DNA from: a virus
DNA: 41,961 bases
Direction: 5' to 3' (one strand)
Virus record (IMG/VR): IMGVR_UViG_3300022745_000068
Location: 1-41,961 of that record
Shown here: positions 18,617 to 38,633 of the stretch, piece by piece
Position numbering within the stretch: position 1 is the first letter of the stretch
How the letters are laid out: each line of letters begins with the position of its first letter
Program-made: the position numbers and the translations under genes
Notes under the pieces: model-generated
The model's input: the letters and a program-made list of their open reading frames with translations, nothing else
The model's database searches: none
What the model was told of the DNA's origin: nothing

Positions 18617-18775
18617 ATGTCTTTATTTTCTGCTATCTCTAATAAGGTAGATGCTGCTGTGGCGGAACTGAAAGCCGCTATCGCTCCTGCGCCTGCGGCT
18701 GACAACACCGCAGTTCTAGCCGCTATCGCTGCGCTAGAAGCTAAATTTGATGCTCAATTCCCCGCTGGTGAATAA
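18617..18775 (+). CDS. Small alanine-rich helical protein, 52 residues
   Basis: ATG 18617 is preceded by GAAAGGTATT. Two helices (SNKVDAAVAELKAAIA and NTAVLAAIAALEAKFDA) are joined by PAPAA, giving a likely helical hairpin. It is the last rightward gene, and its last 35 bases overlap the end of the leftward operon, so the two transcription units converge without a spacer. The function is unknown; it probably goes with the preceding structural gene. Confidence 0.6.
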   Translation: MSLFSAISNKVDAAVAELKAAIAPAPAADNTAVLAAIAALEAKFDAQFPAGE

Positions 18776-18995
18776 CTTGCGCCGAGACATCTATAGCGGG
18801 CTGTACACTCAACTCCAACTGGATGAGAGTGTACAGCTTAGCAAGCGCGTCAGATTGTTTCTGCCTAAAGCAGTTTTCGTCCGACTTAAGGTTGGCATCC
18901 AAGATCTTACCAGCCGCATCCTTCTTAGCTACTACGATGCGAGCAAAGTTAGGATCATCTTCGCTGGGTACATCTATATCCAGTACGTCCTCCAT
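18741..18995 (-). CDS. Last gene of the late operon, 84 residues or longer, start uncertain
   Basis: The C-terminal 80 residues look genuinely coding: EDDPNFARIVVAKKDAAGKI, then RQKQSDALAKLYTLIQLE, a helical, charged sequence. The only in-frame ATG nearby is at 18995. However, about 25 codons upstream also look coding (DDEDDAAYLARLRSKALRV) and reach back to the stop of the PurD-like gene without an ATG, GTG or TTG. Either a rare start is used, or the segment is reached by a -1 shift from the preceding gene; I see no classic slippery heptamer. The size and acid-rich helical type recall small terminase subunits, but this is a guess. Confidence 0.5.
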   Translation of the reverse strand: MEDVLDIDVPSEDDPNFARIVVAKKDAAGKILDANLKSDENCFRQKQSDALAKLYTLIQLELSVQPAIDVSAQVIHQRGIEHQI

Positions 18996-19051: not shown

Positions 19052-20368
19052 CTAATACGTCATCCCTGCTGCGTACCCCATCTTTTGCAGGTCGGGTAAC
19101 TGCTTCTTCAATCGGTTGCCTATATCGGTACGATACATCGGGGAGTTCGGGAGCTCTAATTGTTCCATCACTTTGTATGCCCCACACTTGGCTTGGCTCA
19201 CTGTCTTGCCCGTCCCCGTCGTCACCAACACATAATCGCCCGCTGTAACCATACAAGGTTGGGTCACTATCTTCCCGTTCACCTCCATAGGGGCTTCCCC
19301 CTGCATCATCTCGCAAGGATGGATAAACTGTTTGTTCTGCTCTGTCATCCCATAGACTGGTATCCCCACTACTTCCTTCCTTGTCAGGTGTGAGTATGGG
19401 TAGTCTGGGATCGAAAGAACCACTCCAGTGGCTATCGTGTCCAGAAGGAAATTGCGAGCGTCCTTCCCCTCGCTTAGATCTAGTAGCCATTCTGCATGAT
19501 CTCCCGTATGCAATGCTTGTTGAATATTAAATGTCGGCCAGCCGGGGCGCATGGTAAATTCTAGTGGCCAAGGTGTACCTTTGTCGTCTATAATACAATT
19601 AACATCAATATACCCTGTGTAGCCTGCTCGCGCAAGCGCATCTTCCATCGGCTTCAGTACCTTGGCAGCAAGTGCGGACTTAGCGACGCAGCGCAGGACA
19701 GTGCCTTGCTCCCCAGTGGCTACGCCCTTGTCATCGTTCATGAGTTTCTTAAACTCCCAGTTCTCACACCAGCCCTTATTGAAGCCGCCAGAGCCGTACC
19801 ATCCGCCGACCGCCATCTCAATGCCGGGGATAAACTCCTGTAGGATAAAGGGCGTCTTTAACTTGCTGAGCTTCTTCCAACGCTCCAACATGTATATCAT
19901 ATCCGCAGGGGACTTAGAGCAGTACGATAGAGCCTTGTCAGCACTGCCTGAGGGTTTAGACACATACCGCTTCATGGTCTTCTTCACATGCGCTATGGCG
20001 GTATCATAGTCAGTAAATTCTTTGGTAGGCGGTACTTCTATGCCAGCCTTCTTCATGAGCTTCATACCAACATCACGATCAAGCTCCCACTCCGCAGTCT
20101 CTTTAGTAGGTCCAATAACTGGCGTGCCCTGCTTGCGCAAGAACTCCGACACTTGCAAGTAGGTGGTGTTGTCGGTGAAGAATACTAGATCAGGCCAGCG
20201 CAGCCACTCATAAATCTCGGAAGGGTCTATGCGGTCTACTATCCCCTTACCCACATGCACAACCTTAGGGTCGTTCTTAACAACCCACTTGACCTTATGC
20301 CCATCTGCTATGCAGCGCATAGTCCAGTCTAAGGAAGACGCAGCAGGATCTATAACTAGTATCTTCAT
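19052..20368 (-). CDS. PurD-like ATP-grasp ligase (phosphoribosylamine-glycine ligase homologue)
   Basis: This 438-residue protein shows the order of a glycinamide ribonucleotide synthetase: an N-terminal MKILVIDPAASS strand-loop and ATP-grasp segments RYVSKPSGSADKAL (134-147), FILQEFIPGIEMAVGGWY (174-191) and TPWPLEFTMRPGWPTF (265-280). The C-terminus contains YVLVTTGTGKTVSQA and YRTDIGNRL, close to the PurD C-terminal signature. PurD joins glycine to phosphoribosylamine in purine synthesis. The usual EFN metal-binding motif is EFT here (residues 270-272), and FGDPE is replaced by PGWPT, so the substrate may differ. The start overlaps the preceding virion gene by four bases (ATGA). A role in nucleotide supply, base modification or virion protein tailoring is open. 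Confidence 0.8.
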   Translation of the reverse strand: MKILVIDPAASSLDWTMRCIADGHKVKWVVKNDPKVVHVGKGIVDRIDPSEIYEWLRWPDLVFFTDNTTYLQVSEFLRKQGTPVIGPTKETAEWELDRDVGMKLMKKAGIEVPPTKEFTDYDTAIAHVKKTMKRYVSKPSGSADKALSYCSKSPADMIYMLERWKKLSKLKTPFILQEFIPGIEMAVGGWYGSGGFNKGWCENWEFKKLMNDDKGVATGEQGTVLRCVAKSALAAKVLKPMEDALARAGYTGYIDVNCIIDDKGTPWPLEFTMRPGWPTFNIQQALHTGDHAEWLLDLSEGKDARNFLLDTIATGVVLSIPDYPYSHLTRKEVVGIPVYGMTEQNKQFIHPCEMMQGEAPMEVNGKIVTQPCMVTAGDYVLVTTGTGKTVSQAKCGAYKVMEQLELPNSPMYRTDIGNRLKKQLPDLQKMGYAAGMTY

Positions 20369-23300
20369 GGTAGTAAGCCCTCATTCTCACGACGTGCCTT
20401 AAGCCGCGCGTCAGATTTTAATTTAGATTTCCACAATCTCTGGTCAGCCTTCCTCTCAAACCCTTCTGTAGCTTCGGGAGACGCTATGAACGCGGGCGCG
20501 GGTCTACCCCCCATGAGAGTCTCGGCGGGAGTTATGCCTGTACCCTTGTTACGATTGTAATAAGATTGCACGCTGATGGGGGTAACAGCTTGGTTACTTA
20601 TATATTTGAAGTACCTCCATACCGCGTCTGGAACTTCTTTCATGTAATCAGGAGACCATAAAGCAGTAGGCTTAGCTATGGGGTCTCCCCTATAATCTTT
20701 ATTCTGAAGTGCCTCATATAGAACTTTCGCCCCTATATTACCTTCCGCATACAGTTCTGCTAAAGGATCGTGCATATAATGCGCCATCTGAGTCCAGTGC
20801 CCTGTGGGCAGCACCGCACGTTCAGGAACTTGCTGTTTACCTACATACTGCCGCCCTCCTGTCTTAGGGAAGAATAGATCCTTGGTGCTATCAGGACCTT
20901 TGCCCGTGTGTAGATACTGATACATAGAATTGAGGGTCGCAGCCGCTACCGCATTGGCTATAAGATACTCAGCGTTGACTCCTAGATCCTTACCTGTACG
21001 TGCGGTCTGATAGAGTTCCTTGCCTGCGCCCACAGCCATACGAGTAGCACCCAATACCCAACTATAGGACAGCAACCCAAATTGCATAGCATCCCTTAGT
21101 GCCTTGTTCATAAATAGATTATCACGCATCATCTCCCCGAAACGATTATCCACGCTATCACCTAGGGCTCGGGCAAATGCCTTCTGCTCTTCAAAAGTAG
21201 CTTGAGGGTTAGCCTTCAACCACTCTTGCAGTCGCTCTATGGTCACGCCACGCTTCATATTCGGAATCCATTTGTCAAACATGGGAGCTGATAATTTCTC
21301 CATAGTCTTTCCGAAGCCATGCGCGAAGGCACCTGCTGCCCCTCCCACTGGGGTCTTCGCCGTATGAAATATCTCTTTGAAAGTCTTAGGACCCGCCATG
21401 TCCATGTAGGAAGGACGCTTAGCTTGTAGTACATTAGCCCTAGTAGCTAGGTCAACCAACTTCTCTACGTCAGGACCATAGTCCGTCATTTTCAAATACT
21501 GCTTATGGAACTTAGCACCTTCGCGAGCTACTCTATAGGGAGAGAATAACTTACCGGGTTCAGATATTCCTGACTCGCTCTTAGCGAACTCCGCCCCTTT
21601 AACAACCGCCGCTTTGAGAGCTTGTGTAGGAGTGGTGTTCTTGGCAGTGCGTAAGGCTGCTCTAGCCACACGAGCTAGGTCGCTTGATATGGCAGCAGTA
21701 CCTGTAATACCCGCATGCCATGTAGAGCTAAGACCCAGTTTCAAAGCTGTGATGGCATTAAACGCTTTCTGCGCAGTCCGCATTACGTCCCCTACTTCTC
21801 CAGTCAATCCTGTAGATAGGAAATTATTATACACACGCGCCGCATCTGTGGGGGCGTATGCTTGCAGTTGCACCGGACGACCTGTCTTCTTGTCCACAGC
21901 CACTTTGAAAGCCGCTCGCCCAGTTAGAGGTTCCCACCCCGCAGGACCTTTGCCAGGGGATGCGTACTTCCATAGCCCGTTTTCTTTCATTGCGTCAATG
22001 GCGCGATTATGCGCAATAAACATGTCCGAGTTCGCGAGATGAAGCGCCTGACCTTTAGCGAAATTAGCTTCTCTAGGTCTACCTCCTACCTTTGTAGCCG
22101 CTGCCAGAGCTTCCTCATATGTAGGATATTTTCTGGCTTTTGTGAAGCCTCCTCTGCCCTGCTTACCCGCTAAGACCCTCCCAAAGGCTTTTTGCTGATC
22201 GGGGTTATCAAATACGAAGTCTCTATGTAAATAGTCATCATGCAGATTCACACCCTCTAAGGACTTTGTAGCAGCAATCTTATCAGCCCTAAATTTATAA
22301 GCAGCGCGCATATCATCCGCAGCCGCCTTTAACTCAGGAGATAATTCAGGCTGTTTAGAAGGATTTTTATAATTCTCCATGTAGCGCGGAAAATCAATTT
22401 GCTCCTGCGGAGTCAGCTTATCAAACAAAGGGATATGCCGTTCGAGGTTAGCTACTGAAGCTGCTGCGTCCCTAGTCGCCAACCCGAGCTGTTCCCTCTT
22501 AATGGCAGCCACCTTCTCTGCCTCCTTAGACACCGTAGCAGGAGCTAATATCTTGCGCGGTGCCTCAACAACTTTTTTCAATGCTGATGGAGGAGCTGGG
22601 CGTCCTATGTCCTCGCTATGCAGTTTATCTGGTTCCACAGGAGGTTGCTGCATTTGCTGATTCTTCTCTGCCAAAGGGAGAGCCTCCTCGCGTGTCAGAA
22701 ATTTACCAGACTTAGTCACGAAGCCCTCTTCTCCAGAGCCAGGTATAGCAGCGTGTTTAGTACCCACCTTAATACCTTCAGGCGTCCTCTTAGCTGCTGA
22801 AGCGATCTCGTCTACTGCCGACGCTGCGGTCACAGCAGCCTTACCCGAAGTAATCGTACCGCCTGGTGCCATAGAAGCCATCGCTAGTAGTTGCCCTGTA
22901 TCGCGTATGGCTCCTTCTACCTTAGCAGGATCGTACCGCGATGCTTTGAAATGCGCAGGATCTAGGGCTTCCGCCCCTTTAGCTATATACGGAGCCGCGC
23001 GACTGAGCAGGGTCTCGCCCACTGGCTGAACCGTCACAGTGAATGGTAGAGATACTACGTCTGTGAGAACAGTACCCGCTCTGCCTCCAACATCCCCAAG
23101 CCTCTTCAACCATTCAGGTCCTGGAGATTTATCATCTCTCTCGTAAGGGGTTGTAAATTGCGATGTGATGTCGGAAAGCTGCTCTCCTGCTACTCGCTTA
23201 GTACGTGACAATAATTCTGATCCTACACCCGCAGCAGCAGGGGATGTGGCGCTAGGCGCTGGAGATTGGGGGGTATACCCTACGGCTTTATAGAAATCTT

Positions 23301-23412
23301 GCTGCGGCAGCTTGTCTTTATAAAATTTATTATAGAACCCATCCACGAGCTTCTGATCAGGGACATCCTTATACATGGGGTACTTCTGGCGAATATCACT
23401 CAGAGTAGTCAT
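20365..23412 (-). CDS. Large internal virion / DNA-ejection protein, 1015 residues
   Basis: The N-terminus has the motif IRQKYPMYKDVPDQKLVDGF, frequent in phage internal virion proteins. A Pro/Ala-rich linker and long helical regions follow (Ala-rich around 520-640, basic at both ends). There is no clear catalytic motif. Length, helical composition and position after two smaller helical virion proteins match podovirus ejectosome proteins, which leave the head with the DNA and build a channel. It overlaps both neighbours by four bases, so the three ejection-type proteins and the PurD-like enzyme are translationally coupled. Confidence 0.75.
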   Translation of the reverse strand: MTTLSDIRQKYPMYKDVPDQKLVDGFYNKFYKDKLPQQDFYKAVGYTPQSPAPSATSPAAAGVGSELLSRTKRVAGEQLSDITSQFTTPYERDDKSPGPEWLKRLGDVGGRAGTVLTDVVSLPFTVTVQPVGETLLSRAAPYIAKGAEALDPAHFKASRYDPAKVEGAIRDTGQLLAMASMAPGGTITSGKAAVTAASAVDEIASAAKRTPEGIKVGTKHAAIPGSGEEGFVTKSGKFLTREEALPLAEKNQQMQQPPVEPDKLHSEDIGRPAPPSALKKVVEAPRKILAPATVSKEAEKVAAIKREQLGLATRDAAASVANLERHIPLFDKLTPQEQIDFPRYMENYKNPSKQPELSPELKAAADDMRAAYKFRADKIAATKSLEGVNLHDDYLHRDFVFDNPDQQKAFGRVLAGKQGRGGFTKARKYPTYEEALAAATKVGGRPREANFAKGQALHLANSDMFIAHNRAIDAMKENGLWKYASPGKGPAGWEPLTGRAAFKVAVDKKTGRPVQLQAYAPTDAARVYNNFLSTGLTGEVGDVMRTAQKAFNAITALKLGLSSTWHAGITGTAAISSDLARVARAALRTAKNTTPTQALKAAVVKGAEFAKSESGISEPGKLFSPYRVAREGAKFHKQYLKMTDYGPDVEKLVDLATRANVLQAKRPSYMDMAGPKTFKEIFHTAKTPVGGAAGAFAHGFGKTMEKLSAPMFDKWIPNMKRGVTIERLQEWLKANPQATFEEQKAFARALGDSVDNRFGEMMRDNLFMNKALRDAMQFGLLSYSWVLGATRMAVGAGKELYQTARTGKDLGVNAEYLIANAVAAATLNSMYQYLHTGKGPDSTKDLFFPKTGGRQYVGKQQVPERAVLPTGHWTQMAHYMHDPLAELYAEGNIGAKVLYEALQNKDYRGDPIAKPTALWSPDYMKEVPDAVWRYFKYISNQAVTPISVQSYYNRNKGTGITPAETLMGGRPAPAFIASPEATEGFERKADQRLWKSKLKSDARLKARRENEGLLP

Positions 23413-24197
23413 TTAAGTATCCCTAGTGGATCAGCGCCACTATCACCCCCGAAGAGTTCGTTCATCTTCGCCGCATTACCGGTACTCATCGGTTTAGGTG
23501 CCGCACCCTTTTTAAGCAGGTCGGCTTGCTCTTGCTGTAGTTCTGCGAGTCTAGCTCTCTCAGTCTTATACTCATCCGACCCCATAGCTCCTGCGTTAAG
23601 AAGCGACGTTACAAGCGCCCGCTGGTCACTAACTTCTTTAGCGATCGTGGACGCATCACGAGCCGCTGTAGCAGTATCCTTTTTGCCCCCCCAGATATCT
23701 TTCTGGGCTTCTATACGAGCGTCTTGCATCTGCTTCATAAAGTTCATCCGTTCACCCAGTAAGTTGAACTGATTCTGCATCTGCATCTGTTTCAGTTCCA
23801 TCTGCTGCTGCATCTTCTGATATGGCTGCATCATGCCCATATACTGCCCCATCACAGCCATCTTCTGATCGTCAGGAAGATTAATAGTGGACAACTGCTT
23901 CATCACGTCATCCATAGAAGGGAACTCTTGCCGAGGTGTAGGAGCCATACCGCTAGGAAGTTTCTGCGCACCTGGTAGCCCTTGCGCAGTTGGTGCCGCC
24001 CCACCTGTAGGAGTCTGCGACATAGCTTTGTAAAGCGCGGCTTGCTGGGCGCGTTGGTTCTGGAGCTCTTGCTGCTTCTGTAGGAACTCCTGCTGCGCAC
24101 GAGCGTCTTCTCGCTGGCGAATATCCATAGATTGCGCCATGTTAGTGTAAGGTATAGCCCCGCCCACCGCTTGCAGATAATTAGCCATCTTGCTCAT
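23409..24197 (-). CDS. Gln/Met-rich coiled-coil internal virion protein, 262 residues
   Basis: The protein is mostly helical, with very Gln- and Met-rich blocks (QQEFLQKQQELQNQRAQQAA; QQQMELKQMQMQNQ) around residues 30-55 and 130-150. It also has a C-terminal helix with ALVTSLLNAG and ARLAELQQEQADLL. Such composition is typical of podovirus internal core or ejection proteins. It overlaps the next gene by four bases and follows the previous one after eight. The identification is from composition and order only. Confidence 0.7.
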   Translation of the reverse strand: MSKMANYLQAVGGAIPYTNMAQSMDIRQREDARAQQEFLQKQQELQNQRAQQAALYKAMSQTPTGGAAPTAQGLPGAQKLPSGMAPTPRQEFPSMDDVMKQLSTINLPDDQKMAVMGQYMGMMQPYQKMQQQMELKQMQMQNQFNLLGERMNFMKQMQDARIEAQKDIWGGKKDTATAARDASTIAKEVSDQRALVTSLLNAGAMGSDEYKTERARLAELQQEQADLLKKGAAPKPMSTGNAAKMNELFGGDSGADPLGILK

Positions 24198-24205
24198 AAG
24201 ACCCC

Positions 24206-25273
24206 CTATGCTGCTACAGCCGCATCAGCTAGCCATGGTAAGCCATTCTGTGCGGATGATAATACGGTTCCTACAGGAGCGAACGGCGAAGGCGCTTGAG
24301 AAGCCGCCTGAGAATAGCCCCCTTGAAATCCTGAAGAGAAGTCCCCTAGACCGCTAAGGAGACTCCCTGGAGTCCCCCACATTTGTTGAGCCGCCGCCTG
24401 CTGCTTCGCGTTAGCTTCCTGTTGCGCCTGCCACGACTGCATCATATCTTGGTACTGCGTCTGCTGCGCATTGATGCCTGTGTTCATGTAGTTGCCCAAC
24501 GCTCCTATAGTACTCGCACTTGCATCTACAGGAGCTAGTTGGGACTGCATGTACTGGTTCAGCGCATTAGCCTGATTCCCTGTTACCCCCAAGGATGTGC
24601 CATAAGGCGTTGAACCCGCCATCTGCTGTGCACCTGCACCCGCCACTCCTAAGTTCTGACCCGCTGTGCCTACGCTGCCAGCTGTCCCCAACGCTTTATC
24701 ATAGGCACCTAGTCCTTGCAGCGCGCGTTGCAGCTGCTGGTTCTGCCAGTCAATATTGAAATTAGTTGACGCCTGATTAGCTGCACCTGCTGCCTGCTGC
24801 CCCGTTAACCCGTATTGCGCATTGGTAACGTTGGCTCTGTCAGCTGCCTGCTGCGCCATCTGCTGGTACAACGCCTGCCGGGGATCTAGCCCCATGTTGG
24901 CAACTGCTTGAGCCTGAGGCAGTAACCCCATGGCTGCCCCGCTAAGAGCCTGCCCAGTCTGTACACCTTGCGCTCCTACTTGCCCGTAGCTCTGCCCCGC
25001 TGTGTTAGCAGCAGTCTGCGCACCCGCAGCATAAGGGTTGTTGAACCCTTGGTTGTATAACTGTGCGTACTGAGGAGCGTATTGCACATAGGGGCTGTTG
25101 GCACCCATCAAGCTGGAATTGTAATTGAGTATATTCTGGAGGTTAGTATCCGCTTGACCAACGCCTGCTGGCTGGTAAATGTTAGGAGTTGGGGCATTTG
25201 AATTGCCTCCGAATCCAGGACCGAGCAGCCCCCCTGACACGGTACTAACTATGTCGCCTAATCCGAAACCCAT
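24206..25273 (-). CDS. Gln/Ala/Gly-rich internal virion protein, 355 residues
   Basis: A glycine-rich N-terminus (MGFGLGDIVSTVSGG) resembles a membrane-active or hinge segment. A long Gln/Ala-rich helical body follows (QQMAQQAADRANVTNAQYG, QAQQEANAKQQAAAQQ). This is the usual appearance of DNA-transfer proteins of the P22 gp7/gp16/gp20 or T7 gp14 kind, though no direct homology can be shown here. It is the first gene behind the strong leftward promoter at 25317-25345, which also covers the two downstream ejection proteins and the PurD-like gene. Confidence 0.7.
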   Translation of the reverse strand: MGFGLGDIVSTVSGGLLGPGFGGNSNAPTPNIYQPAGVGQADTNLQNILNYNSSLMGANSPYVQYAPQYAQLYNQGFNNPYAAGAQTAANTAGQSYGQVGAQGVQTGQALSGAAMGLLPQAQAVANMGLDPRQALYQQMAQQAADRANVTNAQYGLTGQQAAGAANQASTNFNIDWQNQQLQRALQGLGAYDKALGTAGSVGTAGQNLGVAGAGAQQMAGSTPYGTSLGVTGNQANALNQYMQSQLAPVDASASTIGALGNYMNTGINAQQTQYQDMMQSWQAQQEANAKQQAAAQQMWGTPGSLLSGLGDFSSGFQGGYSQAASQAPSPFAPVGTVLSSAQNGLPWLADAAVAA

Positions 25274-25316
25274 ACGACCCCTCTAGGTATAAAAAGCGTT
25301 CTAAACTACTGGTTAC

Positions 25317-25345
25317 TTTATAAAATCTTTAGCCGTCTGTGTCAA
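25317..25345 (-). promoter_or_regulatory. Strong sigma70 promoter for ejection proteins and PurD-like gene
   Basis: Read leftwards, TTGACA (25345-25340) and TATAAA (25322-25317) are separated by 17 bases. That is a perfect -35 and a 5/6 -10, the best promoter match inside the late operon. It lies in the 93-base gap between the holin stop and the start at 25273. Confidence 0.75.
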
Positions 25346-25366
25346 TCTAATCCTACTGACCTGAAA

Positions 25367-25750
25367 CTACCTTGACACACCTTTTATCTTCTCAAATGTC
25401 CGCAAGCCGCCCATACCTAACATACCAAACATGAGCTGCCACAAAGTATCATCCAGCTTAGGAAGCGCGGGCACAGCAAGGTGCGCCACCGCGAACCCCC
25501 ACGTAGCGAACGGAGTTATTATGTACTGGTAAAACAATGCTAATGCACAGCACCAGCCTATTGCTGGTCGCCACCCCGCCACGAACAGATCATTACTCTC
25601 AGCCTCTTTCTGGTTGGTCACGCTCTGCTGCTCGTCCCATGCTTGTAGCGCAGTAACAAGCTCTTGCAGTTGCTGCGCTCGCTGAGCGGGGTCGGGGATG
25701 AAATCTAGTATCTTACTGAACAGAGGCATCAATGCAGCTAGGACTGGCAT
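25367..25750 (-). CDS. Holin of the 3TM type
   Basis: This 127-residue membrane protein has the signature of Holin_3TMs/GTA-type holins. An N-terminal helical part (DPAQRAQQLQELVTALQAWDEQQ) is followed by FVAGWRPAIGWCCALALFYQYIITP and a second hydrophobic region, WQLMFGMLGMGGLRTFEKIKG. It would form the inner-membrane lesion that releases the endolysin. Its start overlaps the endolysin end by 13 bases. It is the last gene of the lysis cassette, before the 25317-25345 promoter. Confidence 0.85.
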   Translation of the reverse strand: MPVLAALMPLFSKILDFIPDPAQRAQQLQELVTALQAWDEQQSVTNQKEAESNDLFVAGWRPAIGWCCALALFYQYIITPFATWGFAVAHLAVPALPKLDDTLWQLMFGMLGMGGLRTFEKIKGVSR

Positions 25751-26214
25751 AGCTCACCTCCTGCATTTTTATATGCCTCAAGTAAGGACGCGACACTATT
25801 GGTGTGCTGCCCAGCTAAGCTCCCTTCAAAGGACGCCCATCTGCTAGAGCAAGCTAGTATGGCGTTCTGTATCTTCCCGCTCGCTATCAGGCTTGTAGCG
25901 TTGCACTCCCTAATCAACTGCAGTGCTATCTTGTCCTGCGACTCTGGGGAGAAGTCAGGTAGGTCTAAGCGTGATTTGTAAGCGTCAAAGTAATGCTCCA
26001 AAATCTGGTATCTGCCTGCCGCTGTGGAGTATATACTATATTTAGGGATGAACACCTTCTGCCTAGGATGGTCATCATAACCCTCAAACAGAGTCCCTCC
26101 TACGACAACGTTATAGCCATCGTCCGAGTCTGCTACAGTGCTAGTACCCTCGCTGACTCCTATCATGTCTAGGAAAGCATTCAAGTTAGTTGGTACACCT
26201 TGCAGTCTAGCCAT
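25738..26214 (-). CDS. Lambda R-like endolysin (GH104 lytic transglycosylase)
   Basis: This 158-residue protein has the R-type layout: LNAFLDMIGVSEGT with the likely catalytic Glu22, GYNVVVGGTLFEGYDDHPR, then STAAGRYQILEHYFDAY. Family members cleave peptidoglycan with formation of 1,6-anhydro ends. No signal peptide is visible, so release through the downstream holin is expected. The size equals that of lambda R. AGGAGAGC upstream gives a good ribosome-binding site. Confidence 0.9.
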   Translation of the reverse strand: MARLQGVPTNLNAFLDMIGVSEGTSTVADSDDGYNVVVGGTLFEGYDDHPRQKVFIPKYSIYSTAAGRYQILEHYFDAYKSRLDLPDFSPESQDKIALQLIRECNATSLIASGKIQNAILACSSRWASFEGSLAGQHTNSVASLLEAYKNAGGELCQS

Positions 26215-26227
26215 ATAGCTCTCCTCT

Positions 26228-26455
26228 CTAAAGATGCTTATGCCCGTCCGTTACATCTATCATCCCCAATTGTCTCGGCGTGAGCCTCATGATATTATTG
26301 ATATCCGATACTACCGCCGACAGAGCTTCAACATCCCTGCGTGTCATCTGCACATTCTCAGCAACATGAACTATCTGGGCTTGCTGGTAGCACGCTATAC
26401 TGCCTAAAAAAATGAACCCCACAAGAGCAGAGCCTGTCTGTATGCTAGTGTACAT
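26228..26455 (-). CDS. Small membrane or lipoprotein-like lysis protein, spanin candidate
   Basis: I prefer ATG 26455 (75 residues) over 26473, because the first lies just behind the previous stop and has GGGGGTGA upstream. A hydrophobic N-terminus (ALVGFIFLGSIAC) ends in a cysteine within an incomplete lipobox. A helical, charged part follows (VQMTRRDVEALSAVVSDINN). This fits an outer-membrane spanin or a membrane-anchored periplasmic spanin subunit. The partner could be the preceding coiled-coil membrane protein. The spanin call is inference from position and topology. Confidence 0.5.
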   Translation of the reverse strand: MYTSIQTGSALVGFIFLGSIACYQQAQIVHVAENVQMTRRDVEALSAVVSDINNIMRLTPRQLGMIDVTDGHKHL

Positions 26456-26456
26456 C

Positions 26457-26660
26457 TCAATTATCACCCCCATGTAATATTTTTAAGAACGCACTTACAA
26501 TAACCACAAGTGAGGCTATCCCTCCGATGAACATCTTAGCCACCCAGCCAGCCGTGTCATAGGTCGCAATCTTGAGTTCTAGGGATCTAACCTTCCCCTC
26601 AATCTCCTTCAGCTCTTCCTTGATGGATGCGAGTTCCGTATCTTCCTTGCGCCTGTCCAA
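26457..26660 (-). CDS. XhlA-like coiled-coil membrane protein, 67 residues
   Basis: Residues 5-33 form a charged coiled coil (SIKEELKEIEGKVRSLELK). A transmembrane helix follows (KMFIGGIASLVVIVSAFLKIL), ending in HGGDN. This is the architecture of XhlA, the lysis-associated membrane protein of PBSX-type phages. It is the first gene of the lysis group. It could also serve as an inner-membrane spanin, but the coiled coil precedes the membrane segment. Confidence 0.6.
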   Translation of the reverse strand: MDRRKEDTELASIKEELKEIEGKVRSLELKIATYDTAGWVAKMFIGGIASLVVIVSAFLKILHGGDN

Positions 26661-26669
26661 TGGTGCCTC

Positions 26670-26981
26670 CTATAGTTGCGCCCTTAGAGCTGCTTTGCGT
26701 GCTATGATGCCATTTACTACTGCCAGTGAACTCGCGTCCCCTACCACTGCCTCTGATAAACGACGCGGTGTGAGCATCAAATCTAAATTGCCCAGCTCTA
26801 TCAATGCCTTATCCCTATCGCTAATCACTGGCTTCACGAACCCGCCATCCGCATAAGTGTCCCCGATGGAAGCCACATCACTGGCAACGAGAAGCTGCCC
26901 TCCAGGAGGCGTCCACTGATTCGGATCGTCCAACTCTATCACGTTCTCTACGAGCCCGTTATTTATTAATGCGTATTTCAT
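26670..26981 (-). CDS. Fibre-assembly-like small protein, 103 residues
   Basis: ATG 26981 (MKYALINNG) is chosen over the longer frame from 26999, since it starts one base after the fibre stop with a GGAGGGGG site. The sequence MKYALINNGLVENVIELDD, GQLLVASDVASIGDTYADGG and LTPRRLSEAVVGD is like small proteins that follow phage tail fibres and resemble fibre-assembly chaperones. A chaperone for the glycine-tipped fibre encoded just upstream is the likely role. Confidence 0.6.
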   Translation of the reverse strand: MKYALINNGLVENVIELDDPNQWTPPGGQLLVASDVASIGDTYADGGFVKPVISDRDKALIELGNLDLMLTPRRLSEAVVGDASSLAVVNGIIARKAALRAQL

Positions 26982-26982
26982 A

Positions 26983-28320
26983 TCAACCGCCCCCTGCAAA
27001 TATTGTTATCCTTACCTCGCCTCGCGCACCTGCGCCACCGCTGCTACCGCCTCCTCCTCCTGGAGCTACGCCCGCACTACCATTATTGCCGCCATTGCCT
27101 CCGAAAGAACTCGCGCCTCCTGAATGGGAAGTTGTACCCCCTGCCCCGCCGCCGCCGCCATATACAGATGCCGCACCATTTTGGTTGCCGCCATACCCGC
27201 CGCCGCCGCCGCCCGTATAAAACCCGCCTTGGGGAGCCGTAGAAGTTGTGCCTCCGTACCCTTCTCCACCTGTATCATTTACCCCGCCCGATGGTGAAGC
27301 ATCGTAACCCCCAGCTGCGCCGCCTGGGTCGGAACTCGCATTTGCCCCTCCAGCACCACCAAAAGCGGTGAGCCACGAACCTATAGATGAGTTACCACCG
27401 TTACCGCCGCCTGCAGAACCGCCCGCACCGATAACTATGCTTTCAGTTGCCCCTAAAGACGATAAAAGTACCCACCTGTATTTATAGGAACCGCCGCCAC
27501 CGCCGCCACCCGCGCTACCGCCTCCTCCTCCTGCTCCCCATGATTCAAGTAGCACCATAGCATTTGCAGAATACCCTGATGGTTTAGTCCAGGTTCCTGA
27601 AGCTGTGAAGACCTGACGGTTCACCGCTATGGCGTTCTGCACAAAAGCGGTAGTAGCTAGTTGGGTAGTGTTTGTACCGTTAGCAGCTGTAGGTGCCGCA
27701 GGAGTACCCGTAAATGTAGGACTAGCCAACAATGCAAGACTAGATAATGCTACTCCCGTATCTTTTATCAGTACACCTGTAGCTCCGTTGTAAACTGCTA
27801 CATCACCGTCGGTCGACGATCCCGAGCCGCTGACGAGTGCAGAAGGTAGCGTAGGGTTCATAATAACATGCACCCCTCCCGCTACTATCATCATGTAGGC
27901 GCAACCAGCTATTACCTCTCCACCCACTAAAGCGACTAACCCCGAAGAGGTAACTTTCTGAACAGCCGTAACACCTGTGCCACCCACATCGAGCGTCATA
28001 GCTCCTGAGTTAGAGTACCCAGCTATGAACGATACTATATTACCATCAGTCAGTGCGAAGCTGTTGGGCGTAGTCGTAGCAACTACCTGCGCATTGGCAG
28101 ACCCCGTGGAAGTACCCCCCGAGAATAATGCAGTACCCCCTTGAGCGTGCGACAGAGGTGTAGTCAAGCCTGATAGTGAGGTGATGTCCCCGTTAGCCCC
28201 ATTGGCAGCGCATCTAGCATTGACATCCGCAACTATAGTATTAAAGTCCGCCATCACCTGCGAGGCATCAGCGAGCGACCCGTTCGTTAAATTATAAGGT
28301 ATTGATGGGATGATGGTCAT
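26983..28320 (-). CDS. Second tail fibre with glycine-rich tip, 445 residues
   Basis: The N-terminal 200 residues are of tail-fibre type (DITSLSGLTTPLSHAQGGTA, SPTFTGTPAAPTAANGTN, QLATTAFVQNAIA). After FTASGTWTKPSG near residue 240 the rest is very glycine-rich (GAGGGGGSAGGGGGGGS, GGAGGTTSHSGG), as in receptor-binding tips with polyglycine helices. The TASGTWTKP...GAGGGG pattern is common in phage fibres and resembles the tip of the 1576-residue fibre on the other strand. The phage thus has two different glycine-tipped adhesins. It is followed by its probable chaperone gene. Confidence 0.85.
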   Translation of the reverse strand: MTIIPSIPYNLTNGSLADASQVMADFNTIVADVNARCAANGANGDITSLSGLTTPLSHAQGGTALFSGGTSTGSANAQVVATTTPNSFALTDGNIVSFIAGYSNSGAMTLDVGGTGVTAVQKVTSSGLVALVGGEVIAGCAYMMIVAGGVHVIMNPTLPSALVSGSGSSTDGDVAVYNGATGVLIKDTGVALSSLALLASPTFTGTPAAPTAANGTNTTQLATTAFVQNAIAVNRQVFTASGTWTKPSGYSANAMVLLESWGAGGGGGSAGGGGGGGSYKYRWVLLSSLGATESIVIGAGGSAGGGNGGNSSIGSWLTAFGGAGGANASSDPGGAAGGYDASPSGGVNDTGGEGYGGTTSTAPQGGFYTGGGGGGYGGNQNGAASVYGGGGGAGGTTSHSGGASSFGGNGGNNGSAGVAPGGGGGSSGGAGARGEVRITIFAGGG

Positions 28321-28330
28321 GAGTGCCTCT

Positions 28331-29941
28331 CTAATTCAGGATATATTTTAGCGGCTTGTACCCTAAATGCAAGCTAGAAATCCGTAATCCTAAAGCAGAT
28401 GCTCCTGTGCCTAATACTTTGAGTCTACTAAACACCACTGCCTGATCCCAAGGGATAGTGAGAGGCGTAAGACCCGAGGTTGATGCTCCCCACTTCCCTA
28501 GCCCCCATATAAATGCACCCCATATAGACTGGTTAGCTGCTATGGCTATGTTGCCTCGCGCAAGAGCCGTACCGTTCTCGTCTTGAGCGGTAAAGTTATA
28601 AGACTGCCCGCTAGCTGGAGTAGCCATTTCTATAGTAGATCTAGTTAGCGAATTGGCGTACATATTGCCTAAGTCGGTCATAGGAGAAGTGAGTAAACGC
28701 CAGCTCAGAGGTACACCATCCTCCACAAAACCTACCCCTGCGCCATTATGACCCTGCACTACAAACGAATTGTATATCTTACCCACTCGGTTGTTAGACA
28801 CTAAAAGGAAGTCGTTACCGTTAGGGCAAGCCATGCCGTACTCAAACGTATGCGGTCCTGTCCATAATTTTGACTTCATCGTGTACCAGTAATCTTGGTA
28901 GGGAGTGGCATTGACTGCACCATTCTGGATACATATCCTGTAAGTATCTGAATTAAATGATGCACATGCTCTGCTGGGAGTGAGAGCGTTAATGAAAGGT
29001 GTTGCTAAATCTTTATTAGGTTCAGATACTTGCCCTGCGAAACTTATGACACGGATGCCGTCTACCGCCATGAATACCACGCCTTCTGGCGTAGGCACTA
29101 CTGTACGGGATGCAGTAGTGCCTACAGAGGGAGAAAGCAGGTTAGTAGAAAGGTTAGACGTAACAGCGTCCCCTGTGATGAGGGTGACGGAGTTAGTCTT
29201 GAACGCTAACAGACCCTGCACAATACCTTGGGAAGTAGTGCTAACAGGTAGCTGCGCGAACGCTGTAATGGGCGTGTAGTCACCTATAGTAAAACTCTGG
29301 TTAGAGTTCGCCATAGCTAATGCCAATGTATCTGTGTAGTACACCACGTTCTTACAGACGAAGTATGTCCTGTTACTAAATACTTGGGCAGCACTAGGCA
29401 CAGAAGGTAACGCGTTCGTAGAAGTGTTGCCAGAACTCCACACTGGAGACGTTGGGGTCGTGACGTCAAACACCCCGAAGAAATGAGTCGCCCCATCAAA
29501 ACCGATATGTGCCGTCACTAATTTGATACTCATCAGAGTCATCTGAGGAGGTATCCAGTCTCCTGTAGTAGCCTGCGACGTAGGTACATTGTTGGTTGTA
29601 ATGCCAGATACTGTCAGGAATGCCCCAGATGAAGCATCGCACGCGAAAGGGTAATCCTTGCCTGCATACGTACCCGTGGTTATGCCCACAAGCCCATAGA
29701 CTATACCATTAACTTGGTACATAACTGTGACAGGTCCTACAGTGCCAGGAGCTGACGCCCAAGTAGAGAAATCTATAGCCGTCGTGTTAGCGGGTCTACA
29801 CACGAAGCAAGCTGGTGTGGAAGGGTCAGGGATAAGATCCTGTAGCACCTCACACGCTCCAGAAGATGAGTTGTCGCCACTCAGAGTGTCGTATACACCC
29901 ATCGGTCTGAATCTGATAGGATGTTCCGCACGAGTCGTCAT
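28331..29941 (-). CDS. Tail stabilisation / nozzle-like protein, 536 residues
   Basis: The protein is beta-rich throughout (VTVMYQVNGIVYGLVG, QGIVQGLLAFKTNSVTLITG, GVVFMAVDGIRVISFAG), consistent with a beta-propeller-like platform. The pattern, with VNGIVYGLVG early and AVDGIRVISF in the middle, is typical of podovirus tail proteins related to P22 gp10 or T7 gp12. It lies between the adaptor and the fibre, the expected order. It would form the tip of the short tail and hold the fibres. Confidence 0.75.
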   Translation of the reverse strand: MTTRAEHPIRFRPMGVYDTLSGDNSSSGACEVLQDLIPDPSTPACFVCRPANTTAIDFSTWASAPGTVGPVTVMYQVNGIVYGLVGITTGTYAGKDYPFACDASSGAFLTVSGITTNNVPTSQATTGDWIPPQMTLMSIKLVTAHIGFDGATHFFGVFDVTTPTSPVWSSGNTSTNALPSVPSAAQVFSNRTYFVCKNVVYYTDTLALAMANSNQSFTIGDYTPITAFAQLPVSTTSQGIVQGLLAFKTNSVTLITGDAVTSNLSTNLLSPSVGTTASRTVVPTPEGVVFMAVDGIRVISFAGQVSEPNKDLATPFINALTPSRACASFNSDTYRICIQNGAVNATPYQDYWYTMKSKLWTGPHTFEYGMACPNGNDFLLVSNNRVGKIYNSFVVQGHNGAGVGFVEDGVPLSWRLLTSPMTDLGNMYANSLTRSTIEMATPASGQSYNFTAQDENGTALARGNIAIAANQSIWGAFIWGLGKWGASTSGLTPLTIPWDQAVVFSRLKVLGTGASALGLRISSLHLGYKPLKYILN

Positions 29942-29949
29942 GGCGTACC

Positions 29950-30636
29950 TCAGAACCCTAGTTTCTTAGAGGGTGGCAATGCCCCTGATTGTCTGAAATT
30001 TCTAGGACCTAGCTGGACAGTTTGAGAGTACCCGCCCTTGTCATCATCCATAGTAAGGTATTTGCGCATGCGCTTATCAACTTCTCTAGCCCAGTCACCC
30101 TTACGCGCATCATCACATAGATCCGCAGCCTCTACGCATAGATCTTTTATCAGCACCCGCTGATTAGGGAACCATGGTATAGTATTACTAGTCTCTGGTG
30201 TGGCGATATCCGCCATCTGAGAACGATACCTAACAGTGATATTCAAGGGTATTGCTGGGGGCGGGTAGAACGCCATAGCAGGCGGGGACTGAGACATATC
30301 AGTCGCGAAGTTATCTGGGTAATTGCTTATGCCGTCAGCCGTATAAGCTCTGTCCAAGTCCTTCAAAGGTACTTCGCTCAGATAAAATACAGTTCCGTCT
30401 ATATTATAAAATACATCGTAGAACCGCAGATAGTCCGCAGGCAATGACCAGAAATATGGTATAGTTGCCTGCGGAGTTATTTGGAACGTAGTGGTCTTTC
30501 TGGCTACGTCTAAATCCATCGTCTGCGCATAGTCCGCGAGCACCACGTTTAGGAGCTGCCCGACTTGAGCTGTCCTACCAGGTATGTTGCATATCTGACA
30601 TACTAGATTGACAATCTGCGCAGCGGTGTAAGCCAT
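29950..30636 (-). CDS. Head-tail adaptor (tail tubular A-like), 228 residues
   Basis: The N-terminal helices (AAQIVNLVCQICNIP, LLNVVLADYAQTMDLDVARK) and the middle SLPADYLRFYDVFYNIDG with PPAMAFYPPPAI match the layout of T7 gp11-like adaptors. These form the ring between portal and nozzle. A helical C-terminus ends in a basic tail. It starts directly after the preceding gene and precedes the tail stabilisation protein. The assignment rests on order and motif type. Confidence 0.7.
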   Translation of the reverse strand: MAYTAAQIVNLVCQICNIPGRTAQVGQLLNVVLADYAQTMDLDVARKTTTFQITPQATIPYFWSLPADYLRFYDVFYNIDGTVFYLSEVPLKDLDRAYTADGISNYPDNFATDMSQSPPAMAFYPPPAIPLNITVRYRSQMADIATPETSNTIPWFPNQRVLIKDLCVEAADLCDDARKGDWAREVDKRMRKYLTMDDDKGGYSQTVQLGPRNFRQSGALPPSKKLGF

Positions 30637-31014
30637 CTACTCCCCTGTTATCTCTTTCTCAGCTTCTGCGAGCAGAGCTTTGTACGCATCTAAGTTGCCA
30701 GTGCGCGCAGTAAACTCATTCTGCTTAGCTACATGATTTTGTTTTTCTATAGTGGTCTTGCCATTAACGGTCTCAGCAATGCCGTCACGTAAGGCATTGA
30801 GTAGTTTTTCTTCTACCGCAATCTTGGACTCCATATCCCGTTTAGTGCCGAAAGCTTTCTGGCGGTTGATAGCTTTGCGAACTTTGTCAAGCTCCGCATC
30901 AAAATCTTCCTTAGCAGCCCCCACAGGTAAGTTACCTGCTACCTGGATCTGGTACCCGTTACCGTAATCCACTATATGGTTAATAGCATATCCGACTTTC
31001 TTTTCTTCAGTCAT
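30637..31014 (-). CDS. Coiled-coil virion-associated protein, 125 residues
   Basis: A short beta N-terminus (VGYAINHIVDYGNGYQIQVAG) is followed by two long charged helices (FDAELDKVRKAINRQKAFG; ESKIAVEEKLLNALRDGI). It has no known motif. Its position between capsid and adaptor genes suggests a head completion or core protein. Its stop touches the start of the adaptor gene. Confidence 0.6.
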   Translation of the reverse strand: MTEEKKVGYAINHIVDYGNGYQIQVAGNLPVGAAKEDFDAELDKVRKAINRQKAFGTKRDMESKIAVEEKLLNALRDGIAETVNGKTTIEKQNHVAKQNEFTARTGNLDAYKALLAEAEKEITGE

Positions 31015-31041
31015 CGTAATCTCCCGTATATAAATTAAAAA

Positions 31042-31542
31042 CTAAGCAGTGTACCGCACACCGCTAGACCCTAGCACCGCCCCTCTGGACTCCATAGAGC
31101 GGCGTCCATTGTAGACATTAGAGTTCTCTCCTAGGCGTATGTCTTCTTCTTTCCAACCACGCCCCGCAATATCTTTAAGGGTCTGAATCACCCCTACAGA
31201 TTTAGTATAGGTTTTGCCATTATAATACAGCACCCCATCCAATGAGATGTAGGGTTGCGCTGGTGAAAGATTCAGAGTTATGGTTTCTAAATCTGCGCCC
31301 TTATCATCCTTACCTGCACTAAATAGAGCAGTAGTCTTATGTTTCTTGATAGCAGCCTCTTTGAAGGCTTTCTTCTTTTGCGCTCTAATCTCAGCGGCAG
31401 CCTCTAGCTTGGCTTCCTCCTCCAGTTGCAGCATCTCCTCTTCGGTCAGTTCCATAGACAATGGTGCTGCTTTGGTTTCAATAGCTTCAGCCTTCTTATC
31501 CAAGATAGCAGTAGGCTCATTTTCTTTTTTCTTATCAGACAT
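31042..31542 (-). CDS. Virion-associated protein with charged coiled coil, 166 residues
   Basis: Residues 1-75 are a Lys/Glu-rich coiled coil (MELTEEEMLQLEEEAKLEA, RAQKKKAFKEAAIKK). Residues 85-130 form a compact domain (ISLDGVLYYNGKTYT, IQTLKDIAGRGWKEEDIRLG), and the C-terminus is Gly/Arg-rich. A gene of this type often follows the capsid gene in related phages, but I know no function. It lies just behind the stem-loop at 31561, so its expression is probably lower than that of the capsid. Confidence 0.6.
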   Translation of the reverse strand: MSDKKKENEPTAILDKKAEAIETKAAPLSMELTEEEMLQLEEEAKLEAAAEIRAQKKKAFKEAAIKKHKTTALFSAGKDDKGADLETITLNLSPAQPYISLDGVLYYNGKTYTKSVGVIQTLKDIAGRGWKEEDIRLGENSNVYNGRRSMESRGAVLGSSGVRYTA

Positions 31543-31560
31543 AAATACTCCCGTGAAAAT

Positions 31561-31585
31561 GGTGCGGAGTATTTAGCCCCGCACC
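31561..31585 (-). terminator. Stem-loop after the capsid gene, likely attenuator
   Basis: GGTGCGG (31561-31567) and CCGCACC (31579-31585) form a 7-bp GC-rich stem with an 11-base loop, directly behind the capsid stop. Read leftwards it is followed by ATTTTC, not a full U-run, so partial termination is more likely than full stop. Such an element sets capsid expression above that of downstream genes. Confidence 0.55.
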
Positions 31586-31594
31586 GTATTAATG

Positions 31595-32971
31595 TTAGCT
31601 GAAGGTTGCACCGAAATTAGACGCCGATTCAATCCGCCCGAAGAAATTATTATTCAGGATAATTGTACCGTACATAACCTTGTACCCTACAGTACGAAGT
31701 TGGTTCAACGGATCTGCCTTCTCTGCTTTGTTCAAATAGAAGAACTCCATATTGTCAAGCATAACTTGCCCGTATGCGTCTCTACCAAAGATGAAGGTTG
31801 GGTACACAGTCACAGTAGCCGCAGGAGCTGCTGAAGGAGTGCGTGCTGCACCGACTGCGGTTAGAGTCACCGTAGCACCCGCAGTCAACTGGATAGCTTG
31901 ACCAGCTAGAGGTCCTACAGTAGGTCCATTAGCGCAAGCTGCAAGGTTAGCAGGAGATGAAGTAGTGCCTAGATATACTGAGTACGTATATGCAGTGTTG
32001 GTAGGGAGAGTCACACTAATAGAACCAGCACCAGAGCCGCCTACAGTGATAGCCCCAGATACTTGACCAATTAGGGTCTCATAACCGTTCTGCACAAGTG
32101 AACCTGTGATCTGCAAGTAGTAAGTACCAGCCGCAAGACTACCGCCTGTAGTAGCCGCTGCGTACGAACCATTAGCCGCAGAAGCCCCAGTAGTAGGCTG
32201 CCCATTACCGATGAAATAAGGCACCATGTTAGATGCACACCAGCGCACTCCGCCCCACTCACCAAGCTCGTTGTTGTACAGCTTGTTGACGTCAGAGTTA
32301 GCCCATGCAAGAGTAACAGTAGAGTTTTCACGAAGATCAGCAGCCACTGCATGATGGCACACAGCAACGTAGTGCTGGAACCCACGTGGGTCTTTAGACG
32401 CCATGCTAGGTTTACCCGCAACTACTTTAGCATCTTCTTCGGTCTGACCCATGAACTCAGGAGCACCGATGATGCGTAACGCAGTCACCATACGATTCAC
32501 TTCATGCGAGTTCATCACGTCGCCGTTCTGTAGCGATGCACGGCTACCGCGAGAGTTCACGTAGTTCACTTGCGAACCAGCTAGTAGAGCATTAGCGGTA
32601 TTGCGCTCCAGGGTCTCCTCAGCGTTCATAGCAATTAGCTTGATCGCAGTTTGGAATAGAGGATGCTCAATGGTCATGTCAGCGATATCAGTAACAGTGA
32701 TAGAGTCACCCCATTGCTGAGCTACAGCACTAACTTGCGCTAGCGGGATGGTTTCTCCTGGAGGAGGCACGCCCTCTGATAAAGGAGCGATAGGTAAGTT
32801 AGTACGATCATACCGTGATGCGGTGTAGGTAGTACCACGTCCTTTTGGTAAAGTTAGTTGTTGCCCGAATTGGTATAGAACCAACTGGCGCTGAACCAGT
32901 GGTTGCACCTTCTTCTGGATATAATTACTAATATCCGACGAATAAGTTGCTGCAAAGTTAGTAGTAGCCAT
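31595..32971 (-). CDS. Major capsid protein, N4-gp56-like, with inserted Ig/FN3-like domain
   Basis: This 458-residue protein resembles N4-gp56-family capsid proteins: an N-terminal ISNYIQKKVQPLVQRQLVLY, KGRGTTYTASRYDR, SAVAQQWGDSITVTDIAD and NAEETLERNTANALLAG. The fold resumes with YPTFIFGRDAYGQVML and KVMYGTIILNN at the end. Between about 265 and 385 lies a Gly/Thr-rich beta domain (LAAGTYYLQITGS, GSISVTLPTNTAYTYSVY) that resembles an Ig- or FN3-like fold and interrupts the capsid fold. It probably projects from the head surface. The gene has a good ribosome-binding site (AGGAGACC) and an attenuator behind it. Confidence 0.9.
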   Translation of the reverse strand: MATTNFAATYSSDISNYIQKKVQPLVQRQLVLYQFGQQLTLPKGRGTTYTASRYDRTNLPIAPLSEGVPPPGETIPLAQVSAVAQQWGDSITVTDIADMTIEHPLFQTAIKLIAMNAEETLERNTANALLAGSQVNYVNSRGSRASLQNGDVMNSHEVNRMVTALRIIGAPEFMGQTEEDAKVVAGKPSMASKDPRGFQHYVAVCHHAVAADLRENSTVTLAWANSDVNKLYNNELGEWGGVRWCASNMVPYFIGNGQPTTGASAANGSYAAATTGGSLAAGTYYLQITGSLVQNGYETLIGQVSGAITVGGSGAGSISVTLPTNTAYTYSVYLGTTSSPANLAACANGPTVGPLAGQAIQLTAGATVTLTAVGAARTPSAAPAATVTVYPTFIFGRDAYGQVMLDNMEFFYLNKAEKADPLNQLRTVGYKVMYGTIILNNNFFGRIESASNFGATFS

Positions 32972-32986
32972 ATAGGTCTCCTATTA

Positions 32987-33286
32987 TTAAGAATGTTGCC
33001 ATGAGGTTGAAAATACTGAACTGGGTATAACTAGGGGGTATCCCGCCCCATCCACCATGATCCAATCACCAGGGCGAAGCTCAATGCCCGCTGGAGTCTT
33101 GTTATCAGGTAAATATAAACGGTTGTTCTCTATCACACCGCTTGGTACGCGTGGGGAACCATTCACCGTAGGGTCTTTGATTAGAAGCATTAGGGATGCT
33201 GAGTCCGCTGTGGACAGCCCCCCAGGCTGGAATTGTAAAGCTGACAAGCTAGTAGTGAGCTTAGTCCCCGCAGTCAGTAACGCCAT
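32987..33286 (-). CDS. Small head protein, decoration candidate, 99 residues
   Basis: The protein is beta-rich (LKTTSLSALQF-like start, then VIENNRLYLPDNK and LRPGDWIMVDGAGYPLV), with an LRPGDW motif suggesting a small beta-barrel. It lies between scaffold and capsid genes, the usual place for decoration or head-stabilising proteins. AGGAGG precedes the start. The family is not recognised with certainty. Confidence 0.55.
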   Translation of the reverse strand: MALLTAGTKLTTSLSALQFQPGGLSTADSASLMLLIKDPTVNGSPRVPSGVIENNRLYLPDNKTPAGIELRPGDWIMVDGAGYPLVIPSSVFSTSWQHS

Positions 33287-33328
33287 ATAACCTCCTGTAG
33301 TTTCTGAAAGCTATACGCCGTCAGAAGA

Positions 33329-34081
33329 TTAAAGTCTAAAATTCTTTAGCCTGCGTGTGATCGCCTCTAACGAGTCATCCTTAGCAGACGCCCTAGTGTT
33401 AGCATCCCCGCGACCTGATACAGGCGCGCTTTGAGATGCCTTAACTCTCGTAGCCGCAGCGTTCTTAGCCGCAGTTACTTGCTTAGCTGACGGACCCTTC
33501 AAGAACTCCTGCCCTATCACATAGGATAGAACTGACTCCCTAGGAGCATTGCTTCCGTTCTTGCGCATCTCCGCTAATATGCTTTCCACCTTGTCGGCGT
33601 GTTTAGCGTATATAGGGTTCGTCGCAGCCTTAGCTAGATATTCCGATTTGTCCGCTTGGTCTTGAGAACGCACTTGCGAGATCTGTATCTCTTGATGCAA
33701 CTTCGCCAAGCGTTCTTCTTGTTCAAATAATTTGCGTTCTACTGGATCCATCAGAGCCAAGCGTTCTTCGCGCTCTCTCATAGCTTGAAGGTTCTGCGGT
33801 TGCATAGACTGCAACCTAGCACGTTCCTCAGCTAGAGCTTCCGCTCGTATCGCCCGTTCCTCTGCTGCACGCGCACGTTCGCTGAGAGCTTGTATCCGCT
33901 TGTCACCTCTACGAGGCGGGGCGGGTTCACTCTCTACGGGTGCCTCCTCTAACTGAGCACCATCGTCATCCGATTCCTCGGCTTCAGATGAATCACTCTC
34001 GTCTTCGGTTTCTTCAAGTTCCACTGCCTGCGCAGCTTCCTCAATCGCAACAGTAGTATCTGGATTCTCAGTATCAAGCAT
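33329..34081 (-). CDS. Scaffolding protein, 250 residues
   Basis: The first 55 residues are very acidic (ELEETEDESDSSEAEESDDD). A long charged coiled coil follows (about 60-160, with RAAEERAIRAEALAEERARL), then a basic C-terminus (AAKNAAATRVKAS...RRLKNFRL) that could bind the capsid. This is the typical scaffold profile, between portal and capsid genes. It is the first gene behind the promoter at 34153-34180. Confidence 0.8.
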   Translation of the reverse strand: MLDTENPDTTVAIEEAAQAVELEETEDESDSSEAEESDDDGAQLEEAPVESEPAPPRRGDKRIQALSERARAAEERAIRAEALAEERARLQSMQPQNLQAMREREERLALMDPVERKLFEQEERLAKLHQEIQISQVRSQDQADKSEYLAKAATNPIYAKHADKVESILAEMRKNGSNAPRESVLSYVIGQEFLKGPSAKQVTAAKNAAATRVKASQSAPVSGRGDANTRASAKDDSLEAITRRLKNFRL

Positions 34082-34152
34082 ATCATTCTCCCGTGGTAAT
34101 GAATAACGTTCATCAGACGACTAGTAGGTAACGCCTACAACTCGGTACGCAC

Positions 34153-34180
34153 ATCATACCCACTATATATAGTATTGCAA
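34153..34180 (-). promoter_or_regulatory. Sigma70 promoter for scaffold and capsid with palindromic spacer
   Basis: Read leftwards, TTGCAA (34180-34175) and TATGAT (34158-34153) are separated by 16 bases. The spacer contains the perfect 12-bp palindrome ACTATATATAGT (34162-34173), a possible operator. It lies in the 106-base gap between portal and scaffold, the largest in the head module. Confidence 0.6.
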
Positions 34181-34187
34181 GCACTTT

Positions 34188-38529: not shown

Positions 38530-38633
38530 AATCATTCTCCCGTAAGCTCGCCGTCCTCATCAATAGACGAGGGGGCAGCATTTATATTAGTAGCATCGTA
38601 GTTGTCCCACATAACCACTCCAGTGATAAGGGA

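Follow-up and report, generated by a model that had tools for sequence, protein, structure and literature searches.

A gene with the look of a purine-biosynthesis gene, easily annotated as an auxiliary metabolic gene, is described here in a viral genome where it appears instead to be a core late gene with an altered active site. The window, i.e. the whole stretch of DNA analysed, is the complete IMG/VR virus record IMGVR_UViG_3300022745_000068 (41,961 nucleotides), and its features are collected in Table 1. The encoded protein, hereafter the ligase, is best explained, with a probability of about 0.6, as an active ATP-grasp carboxylate–amine ligase that derives from PurD without being a glycinamide ribonucleotide (GAR) synthetase, and that acts on other substrates and on a target of late infection. 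Its fold and chemistry are known, while no description of the family, of its residue pattern or of its place among core late genes was found in the open-licence literature, nor was any paper on a phage PurD-like virion gene found there.

Table 1. Features of the late region and of the ligase gene (positions in the window)
Feature	Position	Strand	Evidence
EFT-type PurD-like ATP-grasp ligase, 438 aa, ATG start	19052..20368	-	Pfam, TIGR00877, PDB, predicted structure, relatives
ATGA, upstream stop overlapping the ligase start; putative translational coupling	20365..20368	-	sequence; same in 42/84 loci
Giant late protein, 1015 aa, putative ejection protein	20365..23412	-	weak phrog_10691 match
Conserved small late ORF, 84 aa from the sole in-frame ATG near its start	18741..18995	-	relatives
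EFTMRPGWPT, residues 270–279 (EFNxRLGDPE in PurD)	19532..19561	-	alignments
NWEFK, residues 203–207 (PurD Asp212 replaced by Glu205; Lys207 retained)	19748..19762	-	alignments
TGEQGT, residues 218–223 (TGGMGA in PurD)	19700..19717	-	alignments
Asp255 codon (Tyr in canonical PurD); probable replacement metal ligand	19604..19606	-	alignments
Late block: terminase, head–tail connector, capsid, tail, giant protein, ligase	19052..38535	-	ORF list, PHROGs

Fold and sequence signatures

The homology between the ligase and PurD is far beyond chance. Pfam GARS_A, with a cut-off of 27, matches at 30.9 bits; GARS_C, at 33.0 bits, falls just under its cut-off of 34.8, and GARS_N gives no match. A sequence search of the PDB retrieves 2yw2 at E 1.7e-16. 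The AlphaFold model (pLDDT 94) aligns with human and Aquifex PurD at Z 36 (VIA-align), and GAR synthetases fill the first 13 places among its structural matches (Z 32–36 over about 390 residues), the next family following at Z 25. In the predicted structure the GARS fold spans the whole length of the protein, which bears out the first-pass annotation of a full-length PurD-like product. The purD equivalog model TIGR00877 gives 87.8 bits (E 6e-25) against a cut-off of 288 bits, and the PS00184 signature R[LF]GDPE is replaced by RPGWPT. The ligase and PurD therefore have their fold in common and not the functional sequence markers, since the structure matches GAR synthetases but the purD model is missed; the protein is very probably not PurD. 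No match was obtained in PHROGs or in a nucleotide search of E. coli genomes, and a structure library of known viruses yielded just remote ATP-grasp matches, the best with TM scores of 0.48/0.57.

These data bear on the annotation that the gene would most readily receive, namely that of a diverged yet functional GAR synthetase, encoded by an auxiliary metabolic gene that raises the purine supply for phage DNA synthesis. The full-length PurD fold and the GARS_A score agree with it, as do the retention of Arg274 and of one acidic glycine contact (Asp212, present as Glu205), but the purD cut-off is missed by 200 bits, GDPE is lost, the gene is late rather than early and no further purine gene was recognised in the window. 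The reading is improbable, and was rejected on account of the failed cut-off, the lost GDPE and the late position; the cellular relatives, considered below, also speak against it.

Active site

Residues were mapped by alignment to Aquifex PurD and by alignment with ten PurD genes from the genome search, and conservation was counted over 92 distinct phage copies. A computed complex of Aquifex PurD (PMC8880213) assigns ATP contacts to Lys103, Lys143, Glu185, Glu192 and Lys214, glycine contacts to Asp212, Arg287 and Glu292, and metal recognition to Glu100 and Lys214. The ligase has Arg98, Lys138, Gln177, Glu184 and Lys207 at the five ATP positions, Glu205, Arg274 and Thr279 at the three glycine positions, and Glu95 in place of Glu100. 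Among the 92 copies the ATP and metal positions do not vary, and the equivalents of Glu100, Lys143, Glu192, Lys214 and Arg287 are unchanging in all of them.

The glycine site is different: the Arg is kept, Asp212 is conservatively replaced by Glu, and Glu292 is lost, position 279 never being Glu (n = 92) and mostly Thr, Leu, Ala or Ile. Asp290 has become Trp or Tyr, position 277 never being Asp in the 92 copies, and Asn285 of the EFN motif is Thr272 in every one. The initial reading of EFN changed to EFT, with other usual PurD residues differing, was thus correct; the structure prediction that it had proposed gives a PurD fold, and the residue alignments an altered glycine-binding site.

Asp255, a Tyr in canonical PurD, is found in 91 of the 92 copies and probably replaces the lost metal Asn. 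A metal pair of Asp255 and Glu270 is suggested because in D-alanine ligase the first metal-binding acid falls at the place of Asp255. The protein has the ATP-grasp fold and the ATP and metal residues of the superfamily, with Thr for the EFN Asn and Asp255 as the putative substitute, and the residue pattern looks like that of an active ligase with an altered acyl site. A PurD relative without catalysis, with a structural or binding role in the virion, could have lost the canonical glycine contacts and the EFN Asn as the ligase has, but all ATP and metal positions are invariant, an almost invariant Asp255 has been added, and in phages as in cells the positions of the active site belong to the best conserved ones, so that such a role is very doubtful.

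Place in the late block

The late genes occupy the minus strand between about 38535 and 18741 and match terminase (phrog_38), head–tail connector (phrog_332), capsid (phrog_1357) and, weakly, tail protein families of PHROGs. The capsid protein (31595–32971, minus strand) has in its second half a Gly/Thr-rich stretch that looks, by eye, like an inserted Ig-like domain. As first annotated, the ligase gene sits with late genes and not with early metabolic ones; its strand, left unnamed in that annotation, is minus. Its start overlaps by 4 nt the stop of the 1015-aa ORF, an arrangement also seen in 42 of 84 related phage loci, with a 1-nt overlap in 10 more. The proposed coupling to a large late gene is consistent with this overlap, whereas the name ‘ejection protein’ given to that neighbour is putative, drawn from its position and from a weak N-terminal match to phrog_10691. 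The further claim that the ligase gene ends the late operon needs a small correction: it is next to last, because the small ORF comes after it. Relatives of this fast-evolving ORF stand at the same place in L001, L002, L004 and L017, and in the contigs of L253 and L258, without a ligase gene, they come straight after the giant gene; the ORF thus keeps its place whether or not a ligase gene stands between it and the giant gene.

Outside the late block, a plus-strand gene (13207–17937) encodes a putative tail-fibre protein of 1576 aa with a repeated seven-bladed beta-propeller (Lactonase, PF10282, E 5e-101). The early genes searched encode a family A polymerase, an SNF2 helicase, a PriCT/DUF927 primase and an IS110-type protein; the last, of 276 aa (4487–5317, plus strand), matches just the C-terminal Transposase_20 domain of IS110-type transposases, and no relative of it was found in the related loci examined.

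This gene content bears on the suggestion that the ligase joins an amino acid to a base of the phage DNA. Amino-acid-like additions to DNA bases are known in other phages, and an amide of this kind is within reach of the enzyme class. Against this, no base-modification enzyme turned up among the ten window proteins searched, which are mostly early; the ligase gene itself is late and forms a pair with that of the giant protein, and cellular relatives also occur in genomes without sign of adjacent DNA modification genes. A base-modification role is left without support by the window genes searched, and the DNA-base target, for which hardly any probability remains, was rejected on that ground.

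Spread and conservation among phages

The IMG/VR search matched 126 stretches, from which 80 loci were kept. Prevalence was estimated in contigs of at least 37 kb with the tail protein as query, since a terminase query found almost no relatives. The ligase gene is present in 23 of the 26 contigs so picked (of unstated completeness), a figure that may be somewhat high as the query was built from ligase-bearing loci; among contigs picked by the giant protein, 9 of 20 have it and 11 do not, so the giant protein does not need the ligase in all phages. In the genome pairs compared, no gene tested is better conserved than the ligase, which reaches 72% where the capsid has 71% and the terminase 69%, and 63% where the capsid has 56%, the portal 42% and the giant protein 27%. 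Its dN/dS, about 0.02 to 0.11 over the 40 least diverged pairs, which overlap and are not independent, points to purifying selection. In this lineage of phages the ligase is thus, to all appearances, a core late gene. A search of 50,697 public phage records found no relative of the giant or tail protein, and a single close relative of the ligase, at 48% (MW202796.1), where the gene is unannotated.

Other phages, lacking the EFT-type ligase, have a second protein directly after the giant gene, termed P0002, in L312 (8548–9837) and L310 (8647–9924), with further loci of this type in L353–L364. P0002 has no Pfam match, no meaningful PDB sequence match and no match in the phage collection, and neither blast nor phmmer recognises it as related to the EFT-type family; the two are linked by profile comparison (probability 99.2, E 3e-19). 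Its model (pLDDT 86.7) has GAR synthetases as the 14 best PDB matches, D-x-T-x-R stands where the EFT-type family has E-F-T-x-R, and each of eight further loci examined has an ORF of 994–2253 aa just upstream. By its modelled structure, the P0002 type constitutes a separate, deeply diverged GARS-fold ATP-grasp subfamily. Since both directly follow a giant late ORF, two deeply separate GARS-fold enzymes occupy one slot, a fixed place that fits a virion target or carriage in the virion and does not prove either.

Carriage would mean that the ligase is packaged, ejected with the giant late protein and active in the new host, for example against defence or on a host molecule. The ATGA coupling in half of the loci and the second subfamily downstream of giant ORFs are in its favour, but the ‘ejection’ label of the neighbour is itself deduced, and the giant protein occurs without the ligase in some phages and evolves much faster than it; carriage is accordingly an unlikely alternative, although one of some weight.

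Cellular relatives

A profile of the phage proteins was scanned against 84,980 species genomes and gave 67 loci. Four of these (L083–L086), from bacterial draft genomes, are similar to the phage form; their contigs, of 40–55 kb, look like binned phage genomes. The remaining loci are cellular genes, mostly at 29–35% identity, found in Woeseiaceae, Acidobacteria, Gemmatimonadetes, Planctomycetes, Micrarchaeota, Woesearchaeota and candidate-phyla bacteria. They have EFT, R-x-G-Y-P, TGE-x-GT and N-x-E-x-K in common. Cellular EFT-type PurD paralogues were defined here by EFT, R-x-G-[WY]-P, TGE-x-GT, N-x-E-x-K and D-V-N, a pattern that the phage ligase also carries. Relatives across bacteria and archaea are 39–80% identical to L118, and they are unevenly scattered, occurring in 1 of 299 genomes of the L118 phylum, in 7 of 147 genomes of one order and in 23 of 95 of another.

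A canonical purD over the cut-off is also present in 17 of the 26 genomes with a cellular relative, so that the same residue pattern stands beside a true purD, contrary to the GAR synthetase reading. Also contrary to it, five genomes with such a relative (G010, G011, G017, G022 and G023) show neither purD nor purF over cut-offs, being drafts in which absence is not proven. One of them, the 1.1 Mb draft G022 (genome of L135), has two EFT-type copies (TIGR00877, 102.7 and 102.3 bits) and no canonical purD over the cut-off. In the tree, canonical PurD, phage and cellular forms fall on separate branches (support 100, 98 and 85), the EFT-type forms joining apart from canonical PurD; the long branches call for caution. 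From this coexistence and these branches, the EFT-type family is best read as a PurD paralogue.

Neighbours of the cellular genes differ between lineages, and the search for a conserved operon found no common one naming a substrate. An exception concerns six Woeseiaceae-type loci in which the relative is downstream of ORFs resembling, by eye, other ATP-grasp ligases: in L123 (5507–11263) it follows ORFs like two such ligases, among glycogen genes, and related neighbours occur in L108, L121, L127, L128 and L136. A multi-ligase pathway is possible there.

Proposed reaction and target

By the chemistry of the superfamily, ATP would phosphorylate a carboxylate held by Arg274, and the acyl group of the resulting acyl phosphate would then pass to an amine to form an amide. 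The substrates are probably not glycine and phosphoribosylamine, because the acyl pocket differs from that reported for glycine; this supports the early suggestion of an acceptor other than phosphoribosylamine. The ligase would be made late and translated together with the giant late protein, and its most likely target would be this protein, some other part of the virion, or a conserved molecule of the host on which maturation or entry of the virion depends. That the ligase is active, what it joins and where it acts are all deduced here. Several points weigh against this main reading: the high conservation could also mean a host metabolite target unlinked to virions, the place among late genes may be a matter of timing and nothing more, 3 of the 26 tail-picked and 11 of the 20 giant-protein-picked contigs are without the ligase, and the cellular relatives have no shared operon that names a substrate. 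A bolder proposal, put forward tentatively, is that the ligase might be the ejection-module amidoligase of the whole phage lineage, modifying or travelling with the giant protein, with the cellular relatives forming an undescribed ligase family with a new substrate.

For a ligase family common to phages, bacteria and archaea no described function was found, and its substrate, once found, would name a new amide-bond modification or a metabolite used late in infection. Meanwhile, such genes should not be counted as phage purine metabolism.

Comparison with known systems

With PurD (TIGR00877, EC 6.3.4.13) the ligase shares the whole fold, the ATP and most metal residues and the carboxylate-binding Arg; it differs in its equivalog score (87.8 bits, cut-off 288), in GDPE to GWPT, EFN to EFT, Asp212 to Glu and TGGMGA to TGEQGT, and in being a late phage gene. 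The ‘extra’ PurD-like proteins rrnAC0307 of Haloarcula marismortui and Hlac_1553 of Halorubrum lacusprofundi have lost the Asp of RxGDPE and were concluded not to be GAR synthetases (Brown et al. 2011, PMC3261824). Compared by description, both likely belong to the EFT-type family, of which a copy on a Halarchaeum plasmid shares 53% identity with L118; they lack the GDPE Asp as the phage ligase does, but are chromosomal archaeal genes. The P0002 type (L312, L310, L353–L364) has the same GARS fold and the same place directly downstream of a giant late ORF, but differs by its D-x-T-x-R motif and by lying beyond blast, Pfam or phmmer recognition from the EFT-type family. Finally, the ATP-grasp enzymes of LUZ24-like and Pa11-like podoviruses (PMC3890496, PMC6209634) are likewise phage-encoded and of unknown substrate, while that of UFV-P2, with 291 aa, is encoded among the early genes, close to those for an amidoligase and a glutamine amidotransferase, unlike the 438-aa PurD-type late gene described here.
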